This document shows, piece after piece, positions 6,826-30,864 of a stretch of 38,841 nucleotides of DNA (within the stretch, counting starts at the first letter, position 1; every line of letters begins with the position of its first letter). Position numbers and translations under genes: made by a program. The notes beneath the pieces are model-generated. The model did no database searches, was not told where the DNA came from, and worked only from the letters and a program-made list of their open reading frames with translations. The stretch spans positions 178 to 39,018 of the forward strand of contig JAVHLK010000044.1 of the NCBI GenBank assembly GCA_031082285.1, written 5' to 3'. The stretch is from Desulfomonilaceae bacterium. Its GTDB lineage: Bacteria; Desulfobacterota; Desulfomonilia; Desulfomonilales; Desulfomonilaceae.

Positions 6826-7122
6826 ATGAAAAAAATCAAGAGCCCGTGGTACGGAGTAGTCTGGATAGTCATCTGGACTGCAGCCCTCGTATGGTTCCTC
6901 TCATCGGGGATGTTCAATCAACGGGAGAGTATAGGTCTGATTCTCGTATGGGCGATCATGGTGGGAATCACCGTGTTCCTCTTGATCCAACACCTGCGCG
7001 TGCAGATGAAGCAAACGCGTGAGCCCGTCAAACCCGCGAACGTCAAACCGAGTCTGAACGGCCCGTGTCCCTGCGGTTCGGGCAAAAAGTACAAGAGGTG
7101 TTGCGCGGGGAAGGAAGGCTGA
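6826..7122 (+). CDS. Small two-TM membrane protein with C-terminal SEC-C zinc motif
   Basis: The 98-residue protein has two hydrophobic segments (YGVVWIVIWTAALVWFL and IGLILVWAIMVGITVFLLI) followed by a charged linker. It ends in NGPCPCGSGKKYKRCC, the SEC-C zinc-binding motif known from the C-terminus of SecA and many unrelated proteins, where it binds zinc and contacts ribosomes or SecB. The ATG at 6826 is chosen over one at 6706 because the earlier codon overlaps the promoter and because GGAAG precedes 6826 by nine bases. The motif should face the cytoplasm if both ends are inside. It is divergent from the radical SAM operon and shares its control region. A function beyond ribosome, Sec or zinc contact cannot be assigned. 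Confidence 0.8.
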   Translation: MKKIKSPWYGVVWIVIWTAALVWFLSSGMFNQRESIGLILVWAIMVGITVFLLIQHLRVQMKQTREPVKPANVKPSLNGPCPCGSGKKYKRCCAGKEG

Positions 7123-7157
7123 CGGCTTTCTCCCGCGCCATCGAATGTCAATGCCCG

Positions 7158-7658
7158 TCAGCGGCCTCTGCTCTGCGATGCCTCGATGATCCGAATGACT
7201 TCCTGCCTGGCTTGAGGCATCCTCCACCCTCGTTTCATCAGGCACGTGAGATACTGCCGAGCGTACCATCGCATCTGGTTTGGATCTTGAGCCGTGGCGA
7301 TGAGGCCGGGGAATTGGGAACAGTCGGGCGGCTCTTGCGGTTGTGGCGGCTGTGAGTCCGGTACCTGCGGTCTTGCGGCAGTCGCCGGAACCCGGCGGGC
7401 GTCCCGCCTTACCGGGGGGGGTGACGGCGGAGAAACCGCGGGCGGTGTCCGTGGCGCGGTCGGTCGAACTCCCGACGGCCGATAATCCGGCTCCGGGTCG
7501 TCATCGGCACCCGACGAAATGGGTTTTCCCCTGTCGTCGAACTCAGGGGCTTGCGGCGCCTCGTACGGAAACCTTTGGCTGGCGGCCTGTTCGGTTGCGA
7601 CGGCTCCCAAGGACATGAGCAGTCCCACGAACGCACAGATCGCAATCACCCTAATCAT
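7158..7658 (-). CDS. Secreted proline-rich protein of unknown function
   Basis: The 166-residue protein begins with a signal peptide (MIRVIAICAFVGLLMSLGAVA, likely cleaved after ATEQA or nearby). Residues about 30-110 are low-complexity and rich in Pro, Ser and Arg (SPPSPPPVRR, SQPPQPQEPPD). A short ordered C-terminal part carries two cysteines (DCSQF and LTCLMKRGW) that could form a disulfide. GGAGA lies seven bases before the ATG at 7658. It is convergent with the SEC-C gene, and the IS1380 element lies just upstream. I recognise no family. Export and an extended linker or wall-spanning segment are the only firm predictions. Confidence 0.65.
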   Translation of the reverse strand: MIRVIAICAFVGLLMSLGAVATEQAASQRFPYEAPQAPEFDDRGKPISSGADDDPEPDYRPSGVRPTAPRTPPAVSPPSPPPVRRDARRVPATAARPQVPDSQPPQPQEPPDCSQFPGLIATAQDPNQMRWYARQYLTCLMKRGWRMPQARQEVIRIIEASQSRGR

Positions 7659-7742
7659 GGTTGGATCTCCGATTCATTGAGCGGGGGAAGTTAGCACAAC
7701 TGGAAAAAAAATGCCAGATAGGTCGGGGGCCATGATCCTCCA

Positions 7743-9575
7743 CCTAATTTTCGCGGAAGTGGTTTGATGGGTCGCCGGCCCCTCAATGCCCCCGTGATGA
7801 TGTTCCCCCCTTCATGCGAATCGAGCTCGGTGCCACGTCAGCCCCATTCGTATGCCGAATTGCCTCTACTTGGACAAAGTTCAGGCGCACGTCCCCCCTT
7901 AGTCCACTTTCCCCCCCATTTGCGCTGCATTTCCCCAGGATACGGCGCTTTGACTAGCCCGAGTCGCAAAAGCTTAGAATCCTCCTTCTCATTTGAAATA
8001 GTGTATCGTTCGACGGGTGCCCCCCAACCAGTCGAACCTTCAGGGTCCGAGCACCATAGAGCACTCGAGCCGGCAGCTTGATGAGCCGAAACCGTATGGC
8101 CTTCATACGCTTGCCCACCCATGTTCCCCCCAGAACCAAACGCTTCATCGCCGAGTTCAGGTTCAAGGCCAGGATCATGATGTGCCACCATGCTGCATTC
8201 ACCCCAAAATTTCCTGAAGGAAGCCTGCCTCCTGCCAGATCTTCCTTCATGATCGAATGGGCCTCCTCGGATTTGCCACAGCGCTCCCGATGCCACCAAA
8301 TCAGCTCGTCTCCAGGAAGGTCTCGATTGGTCACCAGCCCGAACACCTTGTGCTTCACCGACCCAAAGTTCATGGTCGGAAACGGCAGAGAAGGTTGATC
8401 GTCCAGGTCCGGCAGAGCGGGCTGCTCAAGAGGCTCTCGAATCGCCAGGTACCGGAAGGTCGGAGCATTTTTCTTCCGAGCCATTTCCGCGGGGACAAAG
8501 CAGACCTCAGCATATTCCTGACCCGAATCTACCAAGCCATCCTCGGTTTTACGCCACAACCGGCTCCACTCAGGCTCCTCAACCTCGGAGACCGCCTGTT
8601 TGAAGGATTCCGTCACCTTGGCGCCAATGCAAAAGTCGATCACCCCGAAGCGCGGCTTATGCGGATCAGCGCAAAACTCCATTAGATCGTGCTGATACCC
8701 TGCCGTGTCCGTGCGCAGATAGACCTTCGATACCCCACCAGGCAGCATACCCAACCCCTCGGAAAGCACGCGAACATTGTCCGTACCTGCCCAGACATTC
8801 CCGTCTCGAAACTCCGAGTGGAGGATCAGATCCTGTTCCGCCCAGTACACCTGCAGAGGCTGATACGCCTTGTGTCCCTTGTAGCAATACAGCGCTTCCC
8901 TTTTGTTTGTCTCCACCACGGTCGCATCCAGATCCAGGGTCGCTACCTCTTGCGGAGAGCGCCTTTGAACGGAGCCTACAAAATCTCCAGTTACCCCTAT
9001 CAAGGCCTTGAGATGCTCGTTGGGAGCAGGAATAAAGGAACCTTCCTCCGGTCTTAGCTTCTCCTGCTCAGGATCATGAAAATTACTCAAATAGCGGCCT
9101 GACGAAGACGGAGAAGGCACTGACCTCGATTGTCCCTTACGCATCCTCTTCTCCAATCCCCGTCTCTCTCGACGCGATTTTCCAAACCCCACAGACTTTC
9201 GCAGTACCCGACAAAAACCCTCATCTGCTTCCAGAATGTCCAAGTCGCTCAGGCCTTGACCGTCAGCCAGATTCAGGTATATCAATGACATGATCGTCTC
9301 AGCGTCGGACCAACCCTGCTCTGGACGAATCTTCAGGCGGTTCTCGACGGCCCTGCTCAATCCCATCACGTATCCAAATTCGAGATACGGGAGAAGACCA
9401 GCCATCGCTGTCATCCCCCCGGACTTCTTCTGAACTTCGTACTTGAAAGGAAAGAGACCTTGCTTCATACTAATATGCACCTCGTTGGTGATAGAGCTTT
9501 TGTGCAAAAATGATTCTATCTCCCTGAAACCACAGGGTCAACGAGGTTTTTCATTTTTTTTGATGCGCGATTAGG
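7743..9575 (-). mobile_element. IS1380-family insertion sequence, ends approximate
   Basis: The element is defined by its IS1380-type transposase. Candidate ends are CCTAATTTTCGCGG at 7743 and, on the minus strand, CCTAATCGCGC from 9575. They share CCTAAT and a CGCG-like patch but are only weakly matched overall. No clear target duplication is seen. The right end abuts the dispersed repeat copy at 9578. A length near 1.8 kb is normal for the family. Confidence 0.6.
7954..9507 (-). CDS. IS1380-family transposase
   Basis: This is a 517-residue DDE transposase. The three acidic positions lie in TLDLDATVVETNK, in YLRTDTAGYQHDL and in ERCGKSEEAHSIMKEDLAGG, followed by the typical NAAWWHIMILALNLN segment. 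It is uninterrupted and of full family length, so it may still be active. The start at 9507 is uncertain; Met14 (MKQGLFPFKYEV) also resembles family N-termini. It lies inside the predicted IS borders and is not part of the neighbouring operons. A second copy is not seen in this window. Confidence 0.9.
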   Translation of the reverse strand: MHKSSITNEVHISMKQGLFPFKYEVQKKSGGMTAMAGLLPYLEFGYVMGLSRAVENRLKIRPEQGWSDAETIMSLIYLNLADGQGLSDLDILEADEGFCRVLRKSVGFGKSRRERRGLEKRMRKGQSRSVPSPSSSGRYLSNFHDPEQEKLRPEEGSFIPAPNEHLKALIGVTGDFVGSVQRRSPQEVATLDLDATVVETNKREALYCYKGHKAYQPLQVYWAEQDLILHSEFRDGNVWAGTDNVRVLSEGLGMLPGGVSKVYLRTDTAGYQHDLMEFCADPHKPRFGVIDFCIGAKVTESFKQAVSEVEEPEWSRLWRKTEDGLVDSGQEYAEVCFVPAEMARKKNAPTFRYLAIREPLEQPALPDLDDQPSLPFPTMNFGSVKHKVFGLVTNRDLPGDELIWWHRERCGKSEEAHSIMKEDLAGGRLPSGNFGVNAAWWHIMILALNLNSAMKRLVLGGTWVGKRMKAIRFRLIKLPARVLYGARTLKVRLVGGHPSNDTLFQMRRRILSFCDSG

Positions 9576-13209: not shown

Positions 13210-16200
13210 TCATGCCGTTCCATAGAGGGCTATTTCGCCTGTTTGGCCGTGAATAATCATTTTGGTGCCCACGATCACGTCGAGATCGTTGAATCGAACC
13301 TTTTCCGGTTGTCCCGCAAATTTCACGACCTGACGCACCTGCCCCACATACACCTTGTCCAGAGACTTGGCAATGTCCGCAGCATGAGCTCCCCTGCCGC
13401 CGAGTCGGCTGACCAAGGCCGTCGGCACGGGCAACGAGAAAACCTCCTCCATGATCTCCTCGGGAACCGGGTCGTTGACCACGAAGATGAATCCATTGAG
13501 TTGTTCCGATACGGGCAAGCGTTCGTTCATGGAATCGATAATGGACTGAGCTCGGTTGATGTGCCGATAAGGAGCAATCTGATTGCGGTCCGTAACCAAG
13601 ATGCCGCGGAAGATTCCTCCCGACACTCCCGTACCCTGTGCAATGACGCGATATCCAAATGACTTCAAAGCAGGAATTCTCTCGCGTCGTTCCCGGTCTT
13701 TGCGAATCTGGAGGACGAACACCCGACCTTTCTCGATCGTGTATTCGAGTCGCACGTCAAAATGAAGTTTCTCCGCGGTCCTGAACAGGACTTGGGAAAG
13801 GTCCTTCCAAGCCTGGGGCATGTCTCCGGCAAGCGTTTCTTCACGTTTCCAGTGGTCGTGCACGGGTATTGTGGACACCTTTCCGTCGACCACATCGGTA
13901 CCTTGATCGCCCAGAGCGAAATCACCTCTTATTTGCATCGTGAACGGATTGTACGAAATCACTCCTGTCCCGGAAGATTCCAGTTCCACATTTCCGTACA
14001 CCATGTGCTGAACGATCACCGGGGTACGCCACTCACCGTCGATACCCGCTGCCCGGCGATACTTCTGGGCCGCGGGCCCCTGAGAGGAGTGGGACACTAC
14101 GACCGCGCAATGGATGAGTATGTCGAGAAATCTGCCCTGATCCAGCAGTTCGACAACCTTGGGAGCGAGCTGCCCTACACGTTCCTTGTAGTCGAATGCA
14201 AGGGTTTTCATCTGTTCTCCGGTCATCTCCGCTTTGCGCAGGACCTTGAACTGGGCCTTCCTCCTGTCCATCAACTCTTGAAATTCATCACGTTCCGCAT
14301 CGAATGCGGCCTGACTGAACTCCTGCAGGAATCGCCGATAGCAATCGTAGGCGAACCACGGGCCGATAGTCTCACTGAGCCGTTCGGCGATGTCATCGTT
14401 GATCCCGACATTGGTAATGGTGGTCATCATGCCCGGCATGCTTATCCGAGCGCCCGATCTCACGGAAAAGAGCGCGGGGTTGCGGCGGTCGCCCAAGGAT
14501 TTGTTCCACTGCTTGCCCAGTGTTTCCACCGCGGATTCAAATTTGGCACGAAAGTCGGGGTCCGAGACCATCTGTTCCGGTTCCCCAAGAACCTGATCGG
14601 TAGAGATGACAAAGTAAGGGGGCGTGTTTTCCGCAAACCTCAGGAGCGCTGCCTTCAAGCCGATGCGGCAAGGCGAGATCTCCTCGGGTGTGGGAAAGTA
14701 AAAGGGAGCACAGCGCAAATGAGTGCCGGGATCGGACGTAACTCGTCGGCCGGATTCCGCGAGGCGCTGGTTGAGGAACAACTCAATCTTGTCGATGAAC
14801 GTTTCCAAGACCCGCAAGTTGCCGTCCCTTGCCTGGAGATCCGAAATGTACAAGGTTTTAAGATAGTTCTTGAAGAAATCCGATTCGGGAACGTGCTTCA
14901 AAGTCGTCAAATCTCTGAGTTTGCGCGGAAGCCTGTCCATCGGGTAGGTGGAAAGGAAATTCTCGAGAGGACCTTCGAACCAGCTCCGGTACGCGGAATG
15001 CACGTCGTCGAGCTCTTTCTTGATGGATTTGAGCAGGTCCCGTACCTTGTCAAGGGTAAGCCCGAGCCTCCCCGACAGCCGCAGATCTCTGCCCGCCCTC
15101 TGAAGATAGTAGCTGGAATGCCCGTTGACCGCGACGCCTTGCACCAGATGATCCAGGAAGATGAGCGCATCGGGCAAGTTGTCAAGACTGATTCCATCGA
15201 ACCGGCTGTTGCTGATGCTGGTCGCCAACGTCTCCTGCAACGCTTCCAACCGGAGGTCCTTGGTGAATGCCTCGAAACGCTCTTCGATATAGGCAGCCTT
15301 TTGCGCGTATGCATGACCCGCCTTCTTTGCCCGCAGAATAATCGGAGTTGCAGGCTGTTCCAGGTGCATACGCTCCATCTCCGCCGCGTAATTCTCCGCG
15401 CCCTCCGTGATGGTCACCGGTGCCGGCAATGGGTCGCGGAGGTCGGGCGTAAGAAAGTTCTCCTTTATTTCCCGCCGTTCCGAGATAATCCTTTCGAGAC
15501 GTGCCAAGTCCTCTTCCACCGTGGATCCGGTCGATCGCTCGGTTGCAATGAAGTACTTGTTGTACAGGCCCGCAATGAGGTCGATCACATCCAGTACCAT
15601 TCGTTTGGAGAACTCGGGCAGGCTCGGATCGTCTCGATACCTGGAAGTATCAACCGAAACCAGTGCGGACAGACCGTCATTGTGGACCAGGTCGATCTTC
15701 CCATCGGCAAAAATCGTGCGGCAAAGATTCCGAATTCCTTCGCTTTCCGACGGGGAACACCAACTGTCCATAGAAAGATAAGGGAGAGACTCCGAAGGCA
15801 TCCATTCGGAAATGACCTGCGGATCTCCGGTTGAAAAGTACTTGAGGATGCCTCCGGCAAAATAGAAATTCTCTATGCTCCCCCGCCAGTGGATGTCTCC
15901 CCTGAGTTTTCCGAGAAAGTTCCCGATCGGTCTGACGCCTCGATTGGCAAGCTCCCGGGCCAAACCCGCGGCCGTGAGCCTCAACGTATCCAGTGGTCCG
16001 ATGTCTTTCAACGAGTACGGTATCGCTTTGATCAGAGTCCTCACCAGGAAATGAGTCACCGAGGCATTTGCGCGCAACAGGCTTGAGATGTGGTACTGAA
16101 TCAAGTCCTCGTCGCGAAGCAGGGTCCTTCCGATTTCGATCTGCACGATCAAGTAGGGAATGAGCCGATGCATGATTCTCGGATTGGATGCCGTGATTGA

Positions 16201-17676
16201 CAGGAGAGTCTTGATCTGGTGTGCGTGTGCCTGGTTGGCCTCCACATCTTCCGCCAGCACCAACGGTTCCCCCGTGTCGTCGTCTTCGACGGTGTACTTG
16301 GTTTCCAGCGGCCGGAGGAGCGGACGCCGGAGCACATGGTCGATGAGCTCCTGGGCCATCAGGAAGTACCGTTCCCTCCCGAATGTGACGCCCAGAGATT
16401 CTATTGCGGTCAAGGCCGAGATTATCTGCCCGACGTCATTCGAGGAATAGGCCGTCTCGAGGAACATCCCGGCGAAGCCGTTCACCAGCTGCTTTGACGC
16501 CTGTTTCTCCGACTCTTCCAGTTGCAGGACGATCCGGCACACGCCGTCGATCAGGATCCGTTTGACTTCGGGCTTATGAACCTCCAGGATCTGTGATGCC
16601 AGCAGCTCGGCAAACGCGGTTTGAACCGCGGTCGGCAACAAGTGCACCATGTCCTGGAACGCCCGCACGATCGAGCACCATTCATCCCCGACGCTCTTGA
16701 CAAATTCGATGCCTTCGGCAATCTCTTCGGGATCCGGCTCCGACGCAGCATTCAGCATTCGCTCGTATGCAGTCCTCCGCCTCTCGATTCCCTCGGTTCC
16801 GCGCAACGCCACCTTGTCCAGAATATCGGTCCGAAAGCGTTGCTCTTGGGTGAAATCCGATTCCTGAACCGCCGCGTCCAACTTGACCAGGAGTTCGGCC
16901 GGATAGGGCCGGATTTCCTCCAGTGCCGTGATCAAGGCTCGAATTTGCGCTCGGGCCGAGAGTTTCTCAAGACCGGTCTCTTCCTCCCGGGAGTGCTTCC
17001 GTAAGGCCGATCCAATGCTCTTGATCTCCAGTACGCGTCTTTCGAGTGAATTGATGGGCCTGGCGAACGCGGTGTTCGCGAGAAAATCCACCCCTCTTTC
17101 CACAAACGGCAGATACGATTGGAGTAAAGGATTGCTCGACGTTTTGAGAAGACTCTCCACGAACCGTGAAAGCGCGTATTCTCCTTCGGATCGCGCGTCC
17201 GGATCGAATGGCTGCGTAATGGACGCAAAAAAGAACCCGAGCACGATGTCCATGAGCAGCGGGAGTCGATCCTTGACCGATTCGTCGTCCCTTTCCAGGA
17301 CGTACCGGGAAAGGACCTGCACCACATCCAGCCAGTTGGGGATCTCATGCAGTACCGGAATGAGATACTCCGCGATGGCCTTCCTGCGTCCCTTGTACGA
17401 AGTCAGATCGACGAGGTATTCGAGGGACTCTCGCGGAAACCTCGAATAAACGATAATCCCGGAATCCTCTTGCCTGAGATCGACCAGGTATGGAGCGGCG
17501 GATCCGCCGGTGCGGTCGAGTATCATCAGGACGCGCGGGAGGTTTTCCAGGACAAGGGTACTCTCGTCACGGATTTCGGCACCCGCCTCTCGGGCGAGCG
17601 AAACCAATCCTGCGATTTGGTAGGGATTGAGGGGTTCCTTTGTGCTCAATTTTCGAATGAGATCTCTGATGTCCAC
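13210..17676 (-). CDS. Giant PPDK-like protein without PEP/pyruvate domain
   Basis: This protein has 1488 residues. The C-terminal third is pyruvate-phosphate-dikinase-like. The ATP-grasp nucleotide-binding part has FSVRSGARISMPGMMTTITN (about 1070-1090), HMVYGN and RLEYTIEKGRVFVLQ. It is followed by a swivelling phosphohistidine domain, LVSRLGGRGAHAADIAK, with candidate His1431. The protein ends there, so the PEP/pyruvate TIM barrel of PPDK or PpsA is absent. The first 1000 residues are largely helical and I recognise no domain. The start is GTG 17676 with AAGGG upstream. An ATP-dependent phosphotransfer through histidine to another acceptor, as in glucan water dikinase or rifampin phosphotransferase, is a reasonable inference. 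It lies between two sigma-54 activator genes; the double-PAS one is divergent. Confidence 0.8.
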   Translation of the reverse strand: MDIRDLIRKLSTKEPLNPYQIAGLVSLAREAGAEIRDESTLVLENLPRVLMILDRTGGSAAPYLVDLRQEDSGIIVYSRFPRESLEYLVDLTSYKGRRKAIAEYLIPVLHEIPNWLDVVQVLSRYVLERDDESVKDRLPLLMDIVLGFFFASITQPFDPDARSEGEYALSRFVESLLKTSSNPLLQSYLPFVERGVDFLANTAFARPINSLERRVLEIKSIGSALRKHSREEETGLEKLSARAQIRALITALEEIRPYPAELLVKLDAAVQESDFTQEQRFRTDILDKVALRGTEGIERRRTAYERMLNAASEPDPEEIAEGIEFVKSVGDEWCSIVRAFQDMVHLLPTAVQTAFAELLASQILEVHKPEVKRILIDGVCRIVLQLEESEKQASKQLVNGFAGMFLETAYSSNDVGQIISALTAIESLGVTFGRERYFLMAQELIDHVLRRPLLRPLETKYTVEDDDTGEPLVLAEDVEANQAHAHQIKTLLSITASNPRIMHRLIPYLIVQIEIGRTLLRDEDLIQYHISSLLRANASVTHFLVRTLIKAIPYSLKDIGPLDTLRLTAAGLARELANRGVRPIGNFLGKLRGDIHWRGSIENFYFAGGILKYFSTGDPQVISEWMPSESLPYLSMDSWCSPSESEGIRNLCRTIFADGKIDLVHNDGLSALVSVDTSRYRDDPSLPEFSKRMVLDVIDLIAGLYNKYFIATERSTGSTVEEDLARLERIISERREIKENFLTPDLRDPLPAPVTITEGAENYAAEMERMHLEQPATPIILRAKKAGHAYAQKAAYIEERFEAFTKDLRLEALQETLATSISNSRFDGISLDNLPDALIFLDHLVQGVAVNGHSSYYLQRAGRDLRLSGRLGLTLDKVRDLLKSIKKELDDVHSAYRSWFEGPLENFLSTYPMDRLPRKLRDLTTLKHVPESDFFKNYLKTLYISDLQARDGNLRVLETFIDKIELFLNQRLAESGRRVTSDPGTHLRCAPFYFPTPEEISPCRIGLKAALLRFAENTPPYFVISTDQVLGEPEQMVSDPDFRAKFESAVETLGKQWNKSLGDRRNPALFSVRSGARISMPGMMTTITNVGINDDIAERLSETIGPWFAYDCYRRFLQEFSQAAFDAERDEFQELMDRRKAQFKVLRKAEMTGEQMKTLAFDYKERVGQLAPKVVELLDQGRFLDILIHCAVVVSHSSQGPAAQKYRRAAGIDGEWRTPVIVQHMVYGNVELESSGTGVISYNPFTMQIRGDFALGDQGTDVVDGKVSTIPVHDHWKREETLAGDMPQAWKDLSQVLFRTAEKLHFDVRLEYTIEKGRVFVLQIRKDRERRERIPALKSFGYRVIAQGTGVSGGIFRGILVTDRNQIAPYRHINRAQSIIDSMNERLPVSEQLNGFIFVVNDPVPEEIMEEVFSLPVPTALVSRLGGRGAHAADIAKSLDKVYVGQVRQVVKFAGQPEKVRFNDLDVIVGTKMIIHGQTGEIALYGTA

Positions 17677-20517: not shown

Positions 20518-21285
20518 CTATGCGTCGGAAAAAGGCAAGTCCCCGAGGGAAGACGGGTCGAGTTCAGGCATGCAGAGCTGACACCGGCACTTGCCATCCG
20601 CCATCAAAGGCCCGTAGCGCGTGTCCAGCTCCCTTAACGCGGAGAGCTCGCCACGTTCGTAAAATGAGTCGGATAGTCCCGCATCCAATTCAAATAGCCT
20701 GCTCCCCTCCCATTCAGGGTCCGTACTCCCCGGCCCGCCTCCCACGTACATGGCGTAGCCCAATTTCCCCAGCGGCAGAAATTGCCTCGGAAACGTCTCG
20801 GCCATCCCGGCGTCATCCGGCGCAAAACCGAAATGGTTCAGATACTCTTCCTTGATTCGCTCGTGAGACTCCGCGTAGTATGTCTCGGCCCAATGGGTCC
20901 CCAATTCCGCGGAGACCTCCGCGGTTCCCGCACAGCCGGAAAAGGTGATCTGTATATAGTATTCGGGCGATGACACCTCGGGATTCTGCTCTCCTCTCAC
21001 AAAAACGGATAGTACGCCGCCTCGAAGGTAGTCCAGGAAGACCCTGGTGGCCGGCCACGGCTGCGACACTCGCTTACGCAGATAGTGCCGAAAATCCTCG
21101 GCAAGAACCCGATACTTGTCCGCGGGCAGCTCAATCATTCTTCTGCCGCCGCCCAGGTCCATTACCTCGGGCTTGTAGAACCGTTGCCTGCCCATGATTC
21201 TGTCCATCAAGGTTCGCTCAATCGGTTCGGGATGCAGCGAGGCTTCCGCAAGCTTGCCCCGGATCAAAAACGCGTTTCCTCCCAT
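20518..21285 (-). CDS. Unrecognised 255-residue protein
   Basis: The ATG at 21285 follows GGAGG at six bases, so translation is well supported. The product looks soluble: no signal peptide or membrane segment is evident. An early segment (RFYKPEVMDLGGGRRMIELPADKYRVLAEDFRHYLRK) looks ordered and may be a small alpha/beta domain. The middle has YYIQITFSGCAGTAEVSAELG, and the end carries a CRCQLC cluster that might bind a metal. I do not recognise the family. The gene is divergent from the crotonase gene at 21459, with about 170 bp between them, and stands alone on its strand. Confidence 0.65.
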   Translation of the reverse strand: MGGNAFLIRGKLAEASLHPEPIERTLMDRIMGRQRFYKPEVMDLGGGRRMIELPADKYRVLAEDFRHYLRKRVSQPWPATRVFLDYLRGGVLSVFVRGEQNPEVSSPEYYIQITFSGCAGTAEVSAELGTHWAETYYAESHERIKEEYLNHFGFAPDDAGMAETFPRQFLPLGKLGYAMYVGGGPGSTDPEWEGSRLFELDAGLSDSFYERGELSALRELDTRYGPLMADGKCRCQLCMPELDPSSLGDLPFSDA

Positions 21286-22370: not shown

Positions 22371-23942
22371 TCAATATTCCTCCCGTACGAGGACGAGTTC
22401 GACTCTGGGGAGTCTGTACTGCCACGATCGCAGTAATTCATCATCCTTTTTCGGCAGCGGCTCGGTCCCGCCCAGCCCGACGGCTCGCATCCGGTTGGGG
22501 TCTATGGAATGGGTCACGGACAAGTATCGTGTTACCGCGCCGGCCCGTTCCAGAGATAATCGTTGATTCTCCTCGGGATCGCCTTTCGTTCCCGTGTGGC
22601 CCTTTACGATCAAGCGAAAATTCGGATAATGCGCAAAGAGTTGCACCGCCTTGTCAAGGACTTCCTTCCCGAGCATGTCGAGATCCGAGGATCCGTGCTG
22701 AAACATGACGGGATCGAGCTTAAGCTTGCCGACTTCCGTCAGCCGGTTCCATTGCTCGTCGGTAAGCGGACTGAACGTCGCTTTTTCCTGCTTGACGAAT
22801 GATCCCGATCGCTGTTCATCCGCGGGTGAGGTGAAACCGGTTACCCCCGTGAGAAAGAGCTCTTCGAGATAACGTGAATAGGTCAGTCGGTAGGGATCGC
22901 CGCCGGGCAGAGGATCGCGGGAAAAATCTCCCGCATTCATGAGGACCTTGACCGCGGATTCCACGGCACTGACTAAACCGTCTTCCGATGCTCCACCGGG
23001 AGGGGATATTCCGAACCATTGCTCGCAGTTCTGTGTGAGATTCACCCACTTGACGCCTTTGAGCATGGAATCCACCGCGTGCTCGGTCAAGCCCGTCTCG
23101 GCCTTGACCTGCTCTCGCAACTGTTGAGGGGCCTCCTGATACTTCTTCAGCGCTCTGAAGTAGTTCGCAAGAAGCGTCTTCACCGCTCCCGGATTCTTCT
23201 CCGAGTATTTCCTGTGTACGATGAGCACGTCCACGATCAGTTTCTCCGTGTCTTCGGTTCCGAGAAGTTTGATGATGCCCGGATGAGCCAATGCCCTGGA
23301 CACGTCGGGCTCCCACATGATGGCGACATCGGTGGTGCCGGCCAGGAGCCTGTTGAGAGCGTCTGCGGATCCTCTGGTCTCGATGCGATAGTCATCGTCA
23401 CGTGGGAGCAATTCGGGAACGCTGAAATGATATGCCGCGGCCTTTGCAAGATGGTGGCTCGGGCTTCCCGGCGTGAAGGCTATCCTCGCGTCGCTCCTTC
23501 CTTTGAGTGCGTCGAGGTTTGCCGCCTCATCTTTCCTGGCGAGAATGGCGTCTCCCCCTTTTGATTCGTCCACCACCATAATGATTGTGCCCGGAAAACC
23601 GAGACCCGCGGCGTTCAAGATGTAGGAATCCACCGTCGCGACTGCGAAGTCGATCTCTCCCGCCTTTAACCGGGCCATGCGCGCGGGGTAATCGGCATCG
23701 TCGTCTTCCGTGGCGAGCACCCACCCGGACCGGTGCATGAGCTTCTTCATCTCGGGCGATCGCAGGATGAAATACCCTATCCAATTGTCGAGCGCGACGG
23801 TTATCTTGCCTTTGGTGCGGCCGGCGTCACTCGTTGCCCGCTGTTTCGCGTCTTGAAAATACGGCAACAGATACCAGGCTCCAACGATCGCGATTATCCC
23901 CAGGACGAGAAGGATGAGCGCACCAACGATCCTCTTGTTCAT
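22371..23942 (-). CDS. Membrane-anchored solute-binding protein fused to OmpA domain
   Basis: From ATG 23942 (AGGGGAA upstream) the protein has 523 residues. A single N-terminal membrane anchor (residues 5-24, VGALILLVLGIIAIVGAWYL) lacks an obvious cleavage site. Residues about 46-345 form a periplasmic solute-binding domain of the NrtA/SsuA/TauA type (KITVALDNWIGYF, LKAGEIDFAVATVDSYI, DVAIMWEPDVSRAL). Residues about 405-520 are an OmpA C-terminal domain (LIVKGHTGTKGDPEENQRLS then LERAGAV), which in the family binds peptidoglycan. In GHTG the Asp that normally contacts diaminopimelate (GHTD) is Gly; the Arg of LERA is kept. It is the last gene of the cluster, 49 bp after the vWA gene. No ABC permease or ATPase is nearby, so a sensing or tethering role is more likely than transport. 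Confidence 0.85.
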   Translation of the reverse strand: MNKRIVGALILLVLGIIAIVGAWYLLPYFQDAKQRATSDAGRTKGKITVALDNWIGYFILRSPEMKKLMHRSGWVLATEDDDADYPARMARLKAGEIDFAVATVDSYILNAAGLGFPGTIIMVVDESKGGDAILARKDEAANLDALKGRSDARIAFTPGSPSHHLAKAAAYHFSVPELLPRDDDYRIETRGSADALNRLLAGTTDVAIMWEPDVSRALAHPGIIKLLGTEDTEKLIVDVLIVHRKYSEKNPGAVKTLLANYFRALKKYQEAPQQLREQVKAETGLTEHAVDSMLKGVKWVNLTQNCEQWFGISPPGGASEDGLVSAVESAVKVLMNAGDFSRDPLPGGDPYRLTYSRYLEELFLTGVTGFTSPADEQRSGSFVKQEKATFSPLTDEQWNRLTEVGKLKLDPVMFQHGSSDLDMLGKEVLDKAVQLFAHYPNFRLIVKGHTGTKGDPEENQRLSLERAGAVTRYLSVTHSIDPNRMRAVGLGGTEPLPKKDDELLRSWQYRLPRVELVLVREEY

Positions 23943-23991
23943 GTTGTTTCCCCTGCAGGGCACGCGGCCGGTCGACGACCGATCGTCGCGA

Positions 23992-24759
23992 TCAATTGCC
24001 GAAATCGGTCACGTCAAAGGTCTCGGCCTCGGCCAGCACGTCCTGCAAGCCTTTGCGGAGAGACGCGGGATCCATTGCCGTTCGGTAATAGGTGCGTCCC
24101 GGTTGATTCAGCGAGTGCTTGTCGCCGATACAGAACCCGATGGTATGGATGATGATGGGAGTCCGTGCAAGGATTGTATTGACCGTCTTGAACAGCCTAC
24201 GAGGGTCATTGGCTATGCCGTCGGTTACCACCACGATGTGGTATTCGCCGTACCCCAACTGCCGCCGAGCCTGGGGCGTGAGCATGTCGTGAGCTCTCGT
24301 GGCTGCCTTGGTCAACGGAGTGGTGTCGCCGGGTATGATGCGATTGATGACGTCGAAGAAGCGGTTCGAGTCGAATGCGCCCAGCGGGATCTCGGACCAC
24401 CCGTTGTTGTGGAATGCCACGAGACCCACATTCGCGTCCGGCGGAACGCTCTTGGCCCATTCCATGAAAGCGTCTCGTGCAACCTCGTACTTCCGTCTCC
24501 CCCCGGCGCATTTCGTTTCGGCCATGCTGCCCGAACCGTCAAATATAACGACATAATTCTTTGCAGTGAGGTGCTCGGCGACCTCGTCCTTGCCGCCTTC
24601 CTTTCCCAGGTACGGCCACGGCTTCTTCTCCGCGGCAGGCTCGGCTGCAGGTCGTTCCACGGCCCGCTTGTCGACGGGCCGGCCGGAGTCCCCGCGACAT
24701 CCGCCGATACAGGGAATTATGAGGAGCATTCCGATGAGGAGACAGACGGCTCTATTCAT
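23992..24759 (-). CDS. Lipoprotein with von Willebrand factor A domain
   Basis: The 255-residue protein starts with a lipoprotein signal (LLIGMLLIIPCIGGC, acylated Cys21). A Pro/Ala-rich linker (30-48) leads to a vWA domain (about 68-245). The MIDAS metal site is complete: D74-G-S76-G-S78 in FDGSGSM, Thr146/147 in PGDTTPL and Asp180 in VVVTDGIAND. vWA domains bind a partner protein through the metal ion, so a scaffold or chaperone-like role at the membrane is likely. Its gene lies between two solute-binding/OmpA fusion genes, 21 bp after one and 49 bp before the other, which suggests a complex. It has two cysteine pairs that might form disulfides. Confidence 0.88.
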   Translation of the reverse strand: MNRAVCLLIGMLLIIPCIGGCRGDSGRPVDKRAVERPAAEPAAEKKPWPYLGKEGGKDEVAEHLTAKNYVVIFDGSGSMAETKCAGGRRKYEVARDAFMEWAKSVPPDANVGLVAFHNNGWSEIPLGAFDSNRFFDVINRIIPGDTTPLTKAATRAHDMLTPQARRQLGYGEYHIVVVTDGIANDPRRLFKTVNTILARTPIIIHTIGFCIGDKHSLNQPGRTYYRTAMDPASLRKGLQDVLAEAETFDVTDFGN

Positions 24760-24780
24760 GGCTCACCTCCCTCCGCCGAA

Positions 24781-26505
24781 CTATTCCAGCGGTTTGAAGA
24801 CCGATTCCTCCGCCTCGACTTGTATAATCCTGAAGGTTACCCGCATGTTCGATCGCCACTCTTCTTTCGTCTTGGGAGGGCACGGGTCGTCTCCGCACAT
24901 CCCGGATTTCGGTTGCATGATGCCGTGTCCCACAACGGTGAACTGGGTGGGATCCAGAGAAACCCCCTTGGATTGAGAATGCTCCATCACATTGTCCCTC
25001 ACCGCCGCGGCTCGGGTGAGGCTCAGATTCTTCGCAGCCTGCTTGACGCGCTTGAGCACTACCTCTTGGCCGCCCTCCTTCTTCTTACGCAGGTAGCCCA
25101 TGGGATCGCTGTGACCTTCCACAATGATGATCGCTCCTCCATAGGTGGAAGCAAGGTCCACGACTCGTTCGAATTCGTCGGCATACATGTCCGCGGAAAA
25201 GGTATTCTGGTTCGGTTGGAAGAGGATCTCAAAGGAGAAGAGTTCTCCTTCTCCCAATGCTCCTTCGGCTCTCTTCTTCTCGATGACCTTGGCGACTTCT
25301 TCCGCCTTGAATCTCGGGGCTTCGATATCGGCCACGCCGGCCAGTCCCTCGCGCAACCGATCGTAGTTCCACCCTGCCTGTGACAATTGGATGCTGCGTG
25401 GGAGCAGACCGAGGCTCACAAAGGTAGACTGAATGCTCCGAGTGAGGTTGGTCATGTTTCGGGGCCAATTCGGGTCTCCGAAGAACTTCACGTTGCCCGC
25501 AAACCCGACATACTCGCAATCGCCGTACAAGGCCTCGGCGTCTCCGGTGGCCTGCTCGCTGTCGAGGAGTATCTTCGCGGACGCGGTTATCATGTCCTTG
25601 AATTCGTCCATCCGACCCTTTCTGTCCTTGAACAGTTGTTTTAGTTCCTGCTCGGCACGTAACAGGCAGTGTACAAACGTCCTCACCCGGTCGCGGTGTG
25701 CGTTCAGATAGTCGGTCCTGACCGCATACACGTCGGCAATTATGCGGTTGGCGGTTTTCGTGGACATGAGGATCTTGGCTCCCTTGACCGACCCTTCCGC
25801 GCCGGTACCCGTAGTCCCCTTGGACGTGAGCATGAGGCCGTCCGGTATGATCACAAACGCCGCGTCCACCTCTTTGCGGGTGAAGGCCTCGGCAGGACTC
25901 TTGTCCGTTCCGGTGAGATCCTCGGTCCACAGGATCTTGACGTCCTTGGTGGAAAGCCCCGCATCTTTGAGAATTGTGCCCAGATAATCCACATGCGGGC
26001 CGTAAGCCTGCAATGCAACCGTCTTTCCCTTCAAATCCTTGACGGTTCGAATCCCCTCCTTGACGACAAGGCAATCGCCCCCCGCGGACCAGGTCATCTG
26101 GTAGATGACCACGGGCTTTGTCCCGGGGTCCTTGTCAAGGACATCGGCAGCCATGTTGATCATGCCCATAGTGCCTCGGAGGTAGGGCGTCTTACCCTGA
26201 ATAAACAGTTCCACCTGCTTCTTGAAATCGTCCATCCGGGTCAGCTTCACCTTGAGATTTGCCTTGGCGAATATGCTCTCCGGCTTCGTCGCGAGCGCGT
26301 TGCCGTTTGCCAGGATGGTGGCGATATCTCCGCCCCACGTAATCAACGGGACGAGGACCTCGTCGCTCGGTTGCACTTCGCCCACGCCGACTTTTATCAC
26401 TTGGGCAAGGGGAGCCAACTTGACTTCTTGCGGTCCGGCCTGTGCGATTGCACCGACAAGAACCAACAATACGGATCCCAATAGGAACTCGCTCATTCTT
26501 CTCAT
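24781..26505 (-). CDS. Periplasmic solute-binding protein fused to OmpA domain
   Basis: The 574-residue protein has a cleavable signal peptide (ends AQAG at 21-24). A solute-binding domain follows (about 35-400: LVPLITWGGDIATILANGNA, DLKGKTVALQAYGPHVDYLG, TRKEVDAAFVIIPDG). A helical segment leads to an OmpA C-terminal domain (about 425-565). There the peptidoglycan-binding Asp in VEGHSD and Arg in NLSLTRAAAV are both present, unlike the paralogue at 22371. GGGAGGGAAG precedes the ATG. It lies 137 bp after the lytic transglycosylase and 21 bp before the vWA lipoprotein. Fusion families of this sort are sometimes labelled phosphate ABC transporter substrate-binding/OmpA (recalled, not searched). 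The ligand is unknown. Confidence 0.87.
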   Translation of the reverse strand: MRRMSEFLLGSVLLVLVGAIAQAGPQEVKLAPLAQVIKVGVGEVQPSDEVLVPLITWGGDIATILANGNALATKPESIFAKANLKVKLTRMDDFKKQVELFIQGKTPYLRGTMGMINMAADVLDKDPGTKPVVIYQMTWSAGGDCLVVKEGIRTVKDLKGKTVALQAYGPHVDYLGTILKDAGLSTKDVKILWTEDLTGTDKSPAEAFTRKEVDAAFVIIPDGLMLTSKGTTGTGAEGSVKGAKILMSTKTANRIIADVYAVRTDYLNAHRDRVRTFVHCLLRAEQELKQLFKDRKGRMDEFKDMITASAKILLDSEQATGDAEALYGDCEYVGFAGNVKFFGDPNWPRNMTNLTRSIQSTFVSLGLLPRSIQLSQAGWNYDRLREGLAGVADIEAPRFKAEEVAKVIEKKRAEGALGEGELFSFEILFQPNQNTFSADMYADEFERVVDLASTYGGAIIIVEGHSDPMGYLRKKKEGGQEVVLKRVKQAAKNLSLTRAAAVRDNVMEHSQSKGVSLDPTQFTVVGHGIMQPKSGMCGDDPCPPKTKEEWRSNMRVTFRIIQVEAEESVFKPLE

Positions 26506-26642
26506 GGACGCTTCCCTCCCGAGCAGACTATTGATGGTGCGGGTTCGGCATTCCGCTCGAACCGGCCGAAACCTGCCGGCATGACGGTTGGTTTAAGGAT
26601 CGGACTTTCCCCCGCCGGCGTTTCCACGTGCAGATATCCGGG

Positions 26643-27905
26643 TCAGTGAAGCAGCGAGAGGCGATCTCGCTTGGCGTCTTTTCTCGTCGGCGCCTTATTG
26701 CCGACGGGGATGAGAATACGTTCCCCGGCGCGAAGGCTTCGGCGGAAATTGACGTCCGGATTGAGGCCGGCCAATTGGGAGCGGCTCACGTGATAACGTC
26801 TCAGAATGCGTGAGACGTTGTCTCCTCTGTCGACTATATGGACGATGTGGGATTTCCCGTTTTCGGTGGGCAGGGTCTCGAGCTTGCGTGCCAGCAAGGT
26901 GCTTCTGCCTTGGGGAACTCTCAATTCAAAGGGCGGACCGTCTGAAGGAGTCACTTTTCTGAACAGTGCGGGGTTCATTTCAGCAAGACGCTCGTAGGGC
27001 ACCCCGGCTGCCCAAGCGAGTTCCTTGAGCGAAAGGCGCTTCCGTATTTCTACAATTTCATGGTCTTTTTTCCGCGTCTTGAGCCTCAATGGAGAGAAGC
27101 CGTATTTGCCGGTATTCTTTGCTATCAGTGCCATGGCCTGAAATCGCGGGAAAAACTCTCTCGTCTCGCGCTTCAGCCTGGGGCTCGAGCAAATTTCGTC
27201 ATACTCGCTCGCATCCTCTGCACAGAGCACCTTATTGAGCTTGTTCTCGCCCGAGTTGTAGGCGCTGAGCGCAAGTCGCCAGCACCCGAACATACCGTAC
27301 AGGTCTTTCAGATAGAGCATGGCCGCTTCCGTGGATCTTCGGGGGTCCAGTCGTTCATCGACCCACCGGTCCACGCGCAGGCCGTAGCTCCTGGCGGTGG
27401 CGGGCATAAACTGCCACATTCCCAGCGCGTTTGCAGGCGAACGCGCCTCCGGATTCGCGCCGGATTCCAGCATGAACAGGTATCCGATGTCCTCGGGGAG
27501 ACCATGTTCCCGAGCCACTTCCTGAACCATCGGCAGGTAGTGCACGGCACGGTCCAGGTACTTCCTCATCGTTTCTCGCTGTTCATAGGCATAATGGCGA
27601 ATGAAGCGTCGCACGCGAGGAGCGTCCGCGTCGTTGGGGAGCGGTGGATAGGATGCGACTTTGCTGGTGACGGATACTTTCTTCCGTAACGGATCCTTTG
27701 CCGTTTCGGTCAATGTTGCAAGGGCGCTGGAGAAGACGTTGGCTACGCGGCCGGTGGGACGAAGTTCACTCTTGACCACGGTGGAGGCTGTACTACATCC
27801 ACCCAGCATGAAAACCCACGCGCACAGAAACCCAAAAGCAGCGCTCAACGTTCCGGTCCGGCTCCAAAAAGCGCCGGCGGCCCTTTTGTGGTCACCGGGA
27901 ATCAA
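26643..27905 (-). CDS. MltD-like lipoprotein lytic transglycosylase with LysM
   Basis: The 420-residue protein has a lipobox VFMLGGC (Cys37). An SLT family 1 domain follows (about 120-225) with catalytic Glu147 in LFMLESGANP, and NALGMWQFMPATARSYGL, WVDERLDP, STEAAMLYLKDLYG and ALSAYNSGE. After a weaker LysM-like region near 290-335 comes a clear C-terminal LysM (about 353-402: HIVDRGDNVSRILRRYHVSR). MltD-type enzymes cut glycan strands and release anhydro-muropeptides in the periplasm. The start is TTG 27905 with GAGGAGG seven bases upstream, and a strong promoter lies before it. It may be the first gene of the solute-binding/vWA cluster, though a 137-bp gap follows. Confidence 0.9.
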   Translation of the reverse strand: MIPGDHKRAAGAFWSRTGTLSAAFGFLCAWVFMLGGCSTASTVVKSELRPTGRVANVFSSALATLTETAKDPLRKKVSVTSKVASYPPLPNDADAPRVRRFIRHYAYEQRETMRKYLDRAVHYLPMVQEVAREHGLPEDIGYLFMLESGANPEARSPANALGMWQFMPATARSYGLRVDRWVDERLDPRRSTEAAMLYLKDLYGMFGCWRLALSAYNSGENKLNKVLCAEDASEYDEICSSPRLKRETREFFPRFQAMALIAKNTGKYGFSPLRLKTRKKDHEIVEIRKRLSLKELAWAAGVPYERLAEMNPALFRKVTPSDGPPFELRVPQGRSTLLARKLETLPTENGKSHIVHIVDRGDNVSRILRRYHVSRSQLAGLNPDVNFRRSLRAGERILIPVGNKAPTRKDAKRDRLSLLH

Positions 27906-30273: not shown

Positions 30274-30864
30274 TCATTCCTCCGTTCTTATCTCACTCAC
30301 CTCGCGCACAATTGACAGATAGATTTCCAGCGCTTCGAGTAAGTCACTTTTCGCGTCCGCGATATAGGCAATTTCCTCGGCCGAAAGATGCTCCCGTGCC
30401 AGAAGCATGTCGATCTTCCTGTTGATATGGATGATTTGCTCCGGTGCGGCAAGGTCTCCCATGTCCAGATCCGGGACTTCCGTCTCCTCAACTTCTTCGT
30501 CCGGTTCGGCATTCTGTTGGGCAATGTGGTCGATCCAGCCGTCGACTTCCTTCCATTTGCTGATGGTAGCAGGGCTCACACCGACTTTGGAAGCCAGTTC
30601 CTTGTTTGTGATATTTCCTCCCTCGTCCATATAGAACCTGAAGGCCTTGTCACGAGCATCTTTCTTTCTCACAGCCGTACCTGCACTCTCTTTTTTGCCG
30701 ACGTTCTCCATCTCTTTCAGCTTCTCTTCCCACTGATCGTCACGTTTCCATCTGCCGACGGTTAGCGGATTAACGGTTACAGCTTTCGCTATTTCCCGGT
30801 TCGTAATTTTTCCTCGAGCCTTGAGAAACTTCTTTTCGGCCTGAATGCGAGCTTCCTTCTTCAT
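30274..30864 (-). CDS. Terminase-small-subunit-like protein with duplicated HTH
   Basis: The 196-residue protein carries two copies of a helix-turn-helix of the phage terminase small subunit type. The first is KITNREIAKAVTVNPLTVGR followed by WKRDDQW; the second is NITNKELASKVGVSPATISK followed by WKEVDGW. They are separated by about 45 basic residues. After an acidic linker (EPDEEVEETEVPDLDMGD) comes a helical C-terminus that may oligomerise. GGAGG precedes the ATG at 30864. No large terminase subunit, portal or other phage gene is in the window, so this is either a prophage remnant or a domesticated DNA-binding protein. The region upstream is more AT-rich than its neighbours. Confidence 0.75.
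   Translation of the reverse strand: MKKEARIQAEKKFLKARGKITNREIAKAVTVNPLTVGRWKRDDQWEEKLKEMENVGKKESAGTAVRKKDARDKAFRFYMDEGGNITNKELASKVGVSPATISKWKEVDGWIDHIAQQNAEPDEEVEETEVPDLDMGDLAAPEQIIHINRKIDMLLAREHLSAEEIAYIADAKSDLLEALEIYLSIVREVSEIRTEE

Follow-up and report, generated by a model that had tools for sequence, protein, structure and literature searches.

Two OmpA-fused solute-binding proteins and a vWA lipoprotein in a Desulfomonilaceae bacterium: a possible half of a split envelope system around an ABC importer

The window analyzed here is a stretch of 38,841 nucleotides from a Desulfomonilaceae bacterium (GCA_031082285.1, contig JAVHLK010000044.1) in which two solute-binding proteins (SBPs) fused to OmpA-like domains are encoded on either side of a vWA lipoprotein. 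Do such proteins form a complex of their own at the cell wall, or do they belong to a transporter encoded elsewhere? The original prediction was a wall-tethered complex, lacking a permease, that senses a small ligand, recruits partners through vWA, and perhaps guides the lytic transglycosylase encoded next to it. We arrive at a different reading, to which we give about an even chance: the three genes encode half of a split, eight-part envelope system built around an ABC importer of the TauABC/NrtABC type, to which the SBPs hand solute.

The four consecutive open reading frames lie on the minus strand, separated by gaps of 137, 21, and 49 bp, as had been described. The first encodes an MltD-type lytic transglycosylase lipoprotein (26643..27905, 420 aa, SLT and LysM domains), a neighbor that is judged to lie outside the system. 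It is followed by SBP1-OmpA (24781..26505, 574 aa), which contains a signal peptide, an NMT1/TauA-type solute-binding domain, and a C-terminal OmpA-like domain; in Pfam it matches NMT1 and, weakly, OmpA (21.0 bits against a cut-off of 27.2). The vWA lipoprotein (23992..24759, 255 aa, Pfam domain vWA) has the lipobox IGGC and an intact MIDAS site (DGSGS, T147, and D180). The last gene encodes SBP2, or TM-SBP2-OmpA (22371..23942, 523 aa), which consists of an N-terminal membrane anchor, a TauA/SsuA-type solute-binding domain, and a C-terminal OmpA domain. The start of SBP2 was set at the ATG at 23942 because nearly all relatives begin at that position (MNK... or similar), and the 49-bp gap is measured from there and not from the GTG at 23963. 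Counted from the GTG the protein has 530 aa, and this is the frame in which Pfam gave NMT1_2 and OmpA. AlphaFold2 models back both SBP folds (pLDDT 86.4 for SBP1 and 87.5 for SBP2); the nearest solved folds are TauA and SsuA, with TauA the best match. These predicted folds would narrow the ligand to the TauA/SsuA class only.

The residues expected to matter for function are unevenly kept. The intact metal site of the vWA lipoprotein is borne out across 39 sequences, in which D74, S76, and T147 are present in 39/39 and S78 and D180 in 38/39. Cys84 and Cys210 of this protein occur together in 29 of the 39 homologues and are both missing from the other 10, and they probably form a disulfide. The Asp and Arg of the OmpA-like domain, which we take from work on AbOmpA to be the diaminopimelate-site residues, are kept in SBP1 (GHSD467 and R498) and in its homologues (Asp 37/37, Arg 36/37), which makes peptidoglycan binding by this domain probable. 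SBP2 differs in that the Asp is found in only 2 of the 34 readable sequences (Arg 34/34) and is replaced by Gly in the window. Peptidoglycan binding had been proposed for both fusions; it is doubtful for SBP2.

The three genes keep company far beyond this family. SBP1-vWA-SBP2 recurs with its gene order unchanged in Desulfobacterota, Spirochaetes, Nitrospinota, KSB1, Nitrospirota, gammaproteobacteria, and Vibrio megaplasmids. The vWA gene follows SBP1 in 26 of the 27 related loci and SBP2 comes next in 24 of the 27; the misses are contig ends (within SBP1 in L028, ~30 bp after vWA in L019, and ~520 bp after vWA in L023). This neighborhood exceeds chance, and the co-occurrence of SBP-OmpA fusions with vWA lipoproteins, which had been thought possible, is found across phyla. 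The distances of SBP1 and SBP2 are also correlated (Spearman 0.93), while those of a further component, c2, correlate poorly with the other parts (0.16-0.42). The counts leave out L040 (the same record as L005, with matching gene coordinates), the SBP1 fragment of L028, L003 and L004 (matches to the SBP domain only), and ATPase or permease matches of less than 50% identity. Frames of 863-874 aa that suggested a fused SBP1 in spirochaetes were rejected as artefacts of an upstream open frame in a GC-rich locus; the L092 frame, inspected by eye, has no fused domain.

Relatives usually have the parts in one operon, arranged as SBP1-OmpA, vWA, TM-SBP2-OmpA, c2, TelA, SBP3, permease, and ATPase, and most complete loci include a full importer together with the SBP that belongs to it. 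A divergent spirochaete locus carries SBP, TM-SBP-OmpA, permease, ATPase, vWA, XpaC, and TelA. Among 17 genomes whose loci are cut short or have no permease, permease orthologues (51-74% identity) were found in 11; four gave no match (L006, L008, L023, and L026) and two gave only paralogues of 32-33% identity (L024 and L029). Some of the genomes without the permease may be incomplete MAGs, but it may also be that SBP1 and SBP2 do not need this importer.

The absence of an ABC permease or ATPase holds for the window and does not hold for the system, as many relatives encode both within the operon. The genome that contains the window has c2, SBP3, permease, and ATPase clustered on a different contig (C222), where BPD_transp_1 and ABC_tran adjoin SBP3 and c2. 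Two of the three same-family relatives that were read (L040 and L042) have SBP1-vWA-SBP2-c2-SBP3-permease-ATPase in one run; in the third (L041) the run extends to SBP3, and contig C262 carries the permease and ATPase. Since the window's genome has one half on each of two contigs, co-transcription is not required. An ABC unit elsewhere that uses these binding proteins, which would count against a permease-less complex, is indicated at the level of gene linkage. TelA (PF05816) gave 0 matches in the window's genome and is also missing from three carrier relatives of the same family, although it is present in most other carriers; it follows that TelA is not essential.

The best reading of the system is a TauABC-type importer that has gained two additional, tethered solute-binding domains, an adaptor of the vWA type, and a partner resembling XpaC/TelA. 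From these parts and their gene linkage, which are observed, we infer the following roles. SBP1 would sit on the peptidoglycan and SBP2 would reach from the inner membrane towards it, and their conserved binding domains would capture a small solute, or measure it, and deliver it to the importer formed by SBP3, permease, and ATPase. Because this importer is of the same family as that of the urea/guanidine-carboxylase operons, the first candidate ligand would be a small solute that is rich in nitrogen or polar in some other way, and probably not guanidine for catabolism here. The vWA protein would be a metal-dependent (MIDAS) adaptor that holds the SBPs together, and c2/TelA would connect the complex with the membrane or the cytoplasm, for example by gating import according to the state of the envelope. 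More tentatively, the whole may be a trans-envelope machine in which the importer is wired to peptidoglycan through the OmpA-fused SBPs and the vWA adaptor, and in which an arm of the TelA/XpaC type senses the state of the wall or membrane and gates transport.

Several observations bear on whether other readings fit better. Guidance of the transglycosylase by a wall complex is suggested by adjacency in the window only (the 137-bp gap). MltD adjoins the block in 0/27 related loci, an orthologue is present in 17 of 18 family genomes although SBP1 is present in only 4 of the 18, and in the three other family genomes with both (G305, G307, and G308) they are on different contigs. Thirteen family genomes that lack SBP1 retain MltD, and its gene has a promoter-like site upstream. 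The set, in turn, is linked to an ABC unit. MltD was therefore rejected as a member of the system and is a bystander next to the block, which makes the guidance model very improbable. What survives of it, supported by gene order across phyla and correlated divergence, is a conserved ligand-binding set, tethered in part to the wall, together with its vWA partner. A dedicated uptake system for guanidine (or urea), derived from a guanidine-carboxylase importer by the addition of extra capture proteins, has more in its favor. The NCBIfam family TIGR03427 covers the importer found in carboxylase operons for urea (now guanidine), and all six SBP3s tested exceed its cut-off of 333.9 bits (440-495 bits; 488.5 for that of the window's genome). 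SBP3 shares 57.5% identity with the SBP from an Azospirillum urea-carboxylase operon, and the genes after it are a permease and then an ATPase, as for the TIGR03427 importer. Most conserved motif residues are common to 23 SBPs of the system and 7 from carboxylase operons. In the SBP3 tree, however, the 23 system sequences are separated from the 7 carboxylase-operon sequences by a 100/100 branch, with that of the window's genome inside the system clade beside members of its own family. The only position fixed differently is 46, adjoining the conserved Trp45 of GWxPW, which is E (22/23) or Q (1/23) in the system and M in 7/7 carboxylase SBPs. The window's genome has no urea/guanidine carboxylase over the cut-off, no guanidine-I riboswitch was found in five genomes, and 135 kb from seven sources gave no riboswitch of any kind. 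Guanidine uptake proper is accordingly an unlikely explanation.

A possible but less favored alternative to the split importer is a ligand-gated sensor or regulator of envelope stress, in which the tethered SBPs measure solute or wall state, the vWA/TelA arm transmits it, and transport is secondary or the ABC unit is the signaling output. To our knowledge, TelA and XpaC have been tied to tellurite, nisin, and envelope stress and have no agreed function. TelA lies directly after c2, a membrane coiled-coil protein, in relatives, and a genuine XpaC (PF10112) is a neighbor in some spirochaetes (L092 and L094-L097). A table row in PMC3139573 gives the XpaC-TelA pair as part of cell-envelope stress responses in Gram-positives, and a discussion passage in PMC12791056 also connects the pair with such stress. 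The likeness to the Firmicutes pair is incomplete: c2 gave no PF10112 match over the cut-off in nine genomes searched and a Pfam scan of three c2 proteins returned no family, leaving c2 unsupported as an XpaC, and here the pair is tied to a transporter and the window's family has lost TelA. Domains of the SBP type can serve as regulators instead of shuttles, and the SBP2 model resembles those with a regulatory role in NrtC/CmpC (Z about 25), but TauA scores higher (Z 30.1). The linked importer with its own SBP, the dispensability of TelA in this family, and the lack of a constantly linked regulator gene among the conserved neighbors also argue against a sensor.

The importer reading is best placed by comparison with known systems. 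Like TauABC, SsuABC, and NrtABC, the set has a permease, an ATPase, and SBP domains of the NMT1/THI5-like type, three in all; it differs in that SBP1 and SBP2 carry OmpA domains, SBP2 being also membrane-anchored, and in the addition of vWA, c2/XpaC, and TelA. SBP2 resembles the OmpA-domain stator-type anchors (MotB, PomB, ZorB, and Pal) in combining an N-terminal membrane helix with a C-terminal OmpA domain, as in MotB. Unlike these, it holds an inserted whole solute-binding domain, has mostly lost the peptidoglycan-site Asp, and has no MotA-like partner among the conserved neighbors. Anti-phage defence was considered and set aside, PADLOC having given only a weak ZorB match that is limited to the OmpA domain. 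If the importer reading is correct, SBPs held at the cell wall, and so not free to diffuse, would depart from the usual ABC shuttle model, and a trans-envelope machine would explain the role of TelA as coupling envelope stress to the transporter. By linking TelA/XpaC with a vWA lipoprotein, SBPs tethered to the wall, and an importer of defined type, the set offers a concrete complex to study. The company that the three genes keep with an importer and a stress-linked protein in many unrelated bacteria points to an uptake or sensing machine across the envelope that is undescribed in the open-licence PMC full texts searched.

On Vibrio plasmids the eight genes are contiguous in all three records read (six records cover at least 80% of SBP1), which makes the system accessible in cultured organisms, Vibrio rotiferianus AM7 being one such carrier. 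NCBI names SBP2 on these plasmids 'phosphate ABC transporter substrate-binding/OmpA family protein', a label that names no system; its NMT1/TauA-type fold does not support phosphate.

On re-reading the sequence, the four minus-strand ORFs of the original prediction were borne out. Pfam scans identified SLT and LysM domains in the lytic transglycosylase MltD (26643-27905), an NMT1 domain and a sub-threshold OmpA domain in the binding protein SBP1 (24781-26505), a vWA domain in the lipoprotein (23992-24759), and NMT1_2 and OmpA domains in the second binding protein, SBP2 (22371-23942). The sequences show a signal peptide in SBP1, a lipobox (IGGC) in the vWA protein and an uncleaved N-terminal helix in SBP2. 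The SBP2 start codon should be the ATG at 23942, as an MNK start is common to its relatives.

The SBP1-vWA-SBP2 block is real. SBP1 was used to scan genome contigs, and the 77 pattern matches obtained gave 26 loci, to which one from a sampled genome of the same phylum (G252) was added. Downstream of SBP1, vWA was found in 26 of these 27 loci and SBP2 in 24, the misses being contig ends; it had been supposed that SBP-OmpA fusions and vWA lipoproteins may co-occur in other genomes, and they do. The carriers include Desulfobacterota, Spirochaetales, Nitrospinota, KSB1, a Chromatiales MAG, a Nitrospirota magnetotactic bacterium and one Parcubacteria MAG. Its conservation across phyla indicates that the block is under selection as a unit. 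Its distribution is patchy, with SBP1 matching 4 of 297 sampled genomes of the phylum (only 2 over the whole protein), 4 of 42 in the class, and 11 of 247 genomes around a spirochaete carrier (6 across the whole protein). SBP1 and SBP2 divergence are correlated (Spearman 0.93 over 35 loci), as are those of vWA (0.70-0.72) and SBP3, a third binding protein (0.77-0.80); this is no more than supportive, as orthologous housekeeping proteins would correlate too.

The transglycosylase, which had been tied to the set, is rejected as a member and is a neighbor only: none of the 27 loci has it next to the block, and in G305, G307 and G308 it lies on other contigs than the block. MltD orthologues occur in 17 of 18 family genomes versus 4 of 18 for SBP1. 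Upstream of MltD is the region's best promoter-like site, a consensus match only.

Neighbor clustering and domain scans placed c2 (a membrane coiled-coil protein of about 285 aa with no Pfam match), TelA, SBP3, a BPD permease and an ABC ATPase 3' of SBP2. Among loci that extend far enough past SBP2, BLAST detected c2 in 20 of 21, and clustering placed it in the last (L025); TelA was detected by BLAST in 18 of 21 and by HMM in L016 as well. SBP3 is present in 14 of 17 such loci and the permease in 9 of 11. A permease was sought in 17 genomes whose locus is truncated or has none alongside (L015, whose locus does have one, is among them); 11 have an orthologue (51-74% identity), two (L024, L029) have only 32-33% paralogues and four gave no match at the threshold used.

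In the window's own genome, contig C222 carries, on one strand, c2 (132371-133231), SBP3 after it (131279-132349), the permease (130181-131014) and the ATPase (129214-130113). The same-family loci L040/L005 and L042 have SBP1-vWA-SBP2-c2-SBP3-permease-ATPase in one run without TelA, and in L041 the run reaches SBP3, with the permease and ATPase on another contig. TelA was found neither in the window's genome nor in those of these relatives, and the C222 SBP3 groups with same-family members in the tree. Given the C222 partner set and the unbroken run in family relatives, the window therefore holds one half of a split operon. That ABC permease and ATPase genes are lacking, as stated in the original prediction, is true only of the window; the genome has both on C222 beside SBP3.

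Of six records that cover 80% or more of SBP1 (43.7-44.1% identity), three Vibrio megaplasmids (L109, L110, L118) were examined. In these the order is ATPase, SBP1, vWA, SBP2, c2, TelA, SBP3, permease in one row, with PRTRC genes beside the operon and, in L109 and L110, an RctB-type initiator nearby. In the spirochaete loci L092, L094, L095 and L096, a true XpaC (PF10112, E 5e-24 to 5e-32) adjoins SBP2, on the opposite strand in L094-L096 and with a radical SAM gene between the two in L096; TelA was not found by BLAST in these four stretches. The divergent spirochaete locus L097 has an SBP, a TM-SBP-OmpA protein, permease, ATPase, vWA, XpaC (E 2e-35) and TelA (E 8e-117). c2 itself has no XpaC match, so it is a positional counterpart of XpaC and not a supported homologue.

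As in L096, a radical SAM gene (TIGR01210 type, RaSEA-like) neighbors the system in 6 of the 27 loci (L006, at 6979-8001, L011, L024, L026, L029, L030); two of the proteins scored 108 and 139 bits against TIGR01210, under the cut-off of 212. The Nitrospinota loci L019 (8736-10425) and L020 (9789-11469) have two tandem vWA genes. The operon of L013 (8001-17746), in a Parcubacteria-labelled record that could reflect transfer or mis-binning, has an opposite-strand AAA ATPase gene (PF00004) between vWA and SBP2, and its genome also has a permease (55% identity).

The OmpA-domain Asp and Arg, which we take from A. baumannii OmpA work to be the diaminopimelate-binding residues, are present in 37 of 37 and 36 of 37 aligned SBP1 homologues, respectively; in SBP2 the Arg is present in 34 of 34 and the Asp in only 2. 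The vWA metal site (MIDAS) is intact, as had been described. Cys84 and Cys210 are both present in 29 of 39 vWA sequences and both missing in 10, the pattern expected of the disulfide that they probably form; as spirochaetes make up most of the ten, the losses amount to few events. Several vWA relatives have an N-terminal hydrophobic helix in place of the lipobox, which suggests inner-membrane anchoring.

SBP3 belongs to TIGR03427, the binding-protein family of the urea/guanidine-carboxylase operon importer, in 6 of 6 tested. All seven plasmid relatives of SBP3 examined are in urea-carboxylase operons (six have an annotated uca gene, and the seventh has UAAP1/2 and atzF). According to a review (PMC12186494), bacteria that use the guanidine carboxylase pathway take up guanidine through ABC transporters. 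Most of the conserved motif residues are common to the system SBP3s and the carboxylase-operon proteins, but the two groups lie on opposite sides of a 100/100 branch, and one position in the GWxPW motif is E (22) or Q (1) in the former and M in 7 of 7 of the latter. No urea/guanidine carboxylase was found in the window's genome and no guanidine-I riboswitch in the five genomes searched. The ligand is therefore more likely to be some other, related small solute than guanidine for catabolism.

We favor a TauABC-type importer with extra tethered binding proteins, at roughly even probability, over a stress sensor, which is possible but rather doubtful. The SBP1 fold is nearest to TauA (Foldseek, E 1.8e-14), as is that of SBP2 (Z 30.1, 287 residues, 2.5 A), which also resembles NrtC and CmpC in their regulatory domains (Z about 25); those domains set a precedent for the use of an SBP-like fold as a sensor. 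Any mechanism past gene content, linkage and motif conservation we infer. No description of this gene set was found in the open-licence PMC full texts searched.

Elsewhere in the window (all minus strand), the 255-aa protein at 20518-21285 has no Pfam or NCBIfam match at E 0.001, and the sole Pfam match at E 1e-8 in the 1488-aa protein at 13210-17676 is PPDK_N, in its C-terminal part. The gene at 30274-30864 encodes tandem terminase-small-subunit-like HTH domains (PF10668; NF040601 under cut-off), and its nearest scanned neighbors are not phage genes. A DDE transposase (PF13701, E 7e-28) is encoded at 7954-9507.
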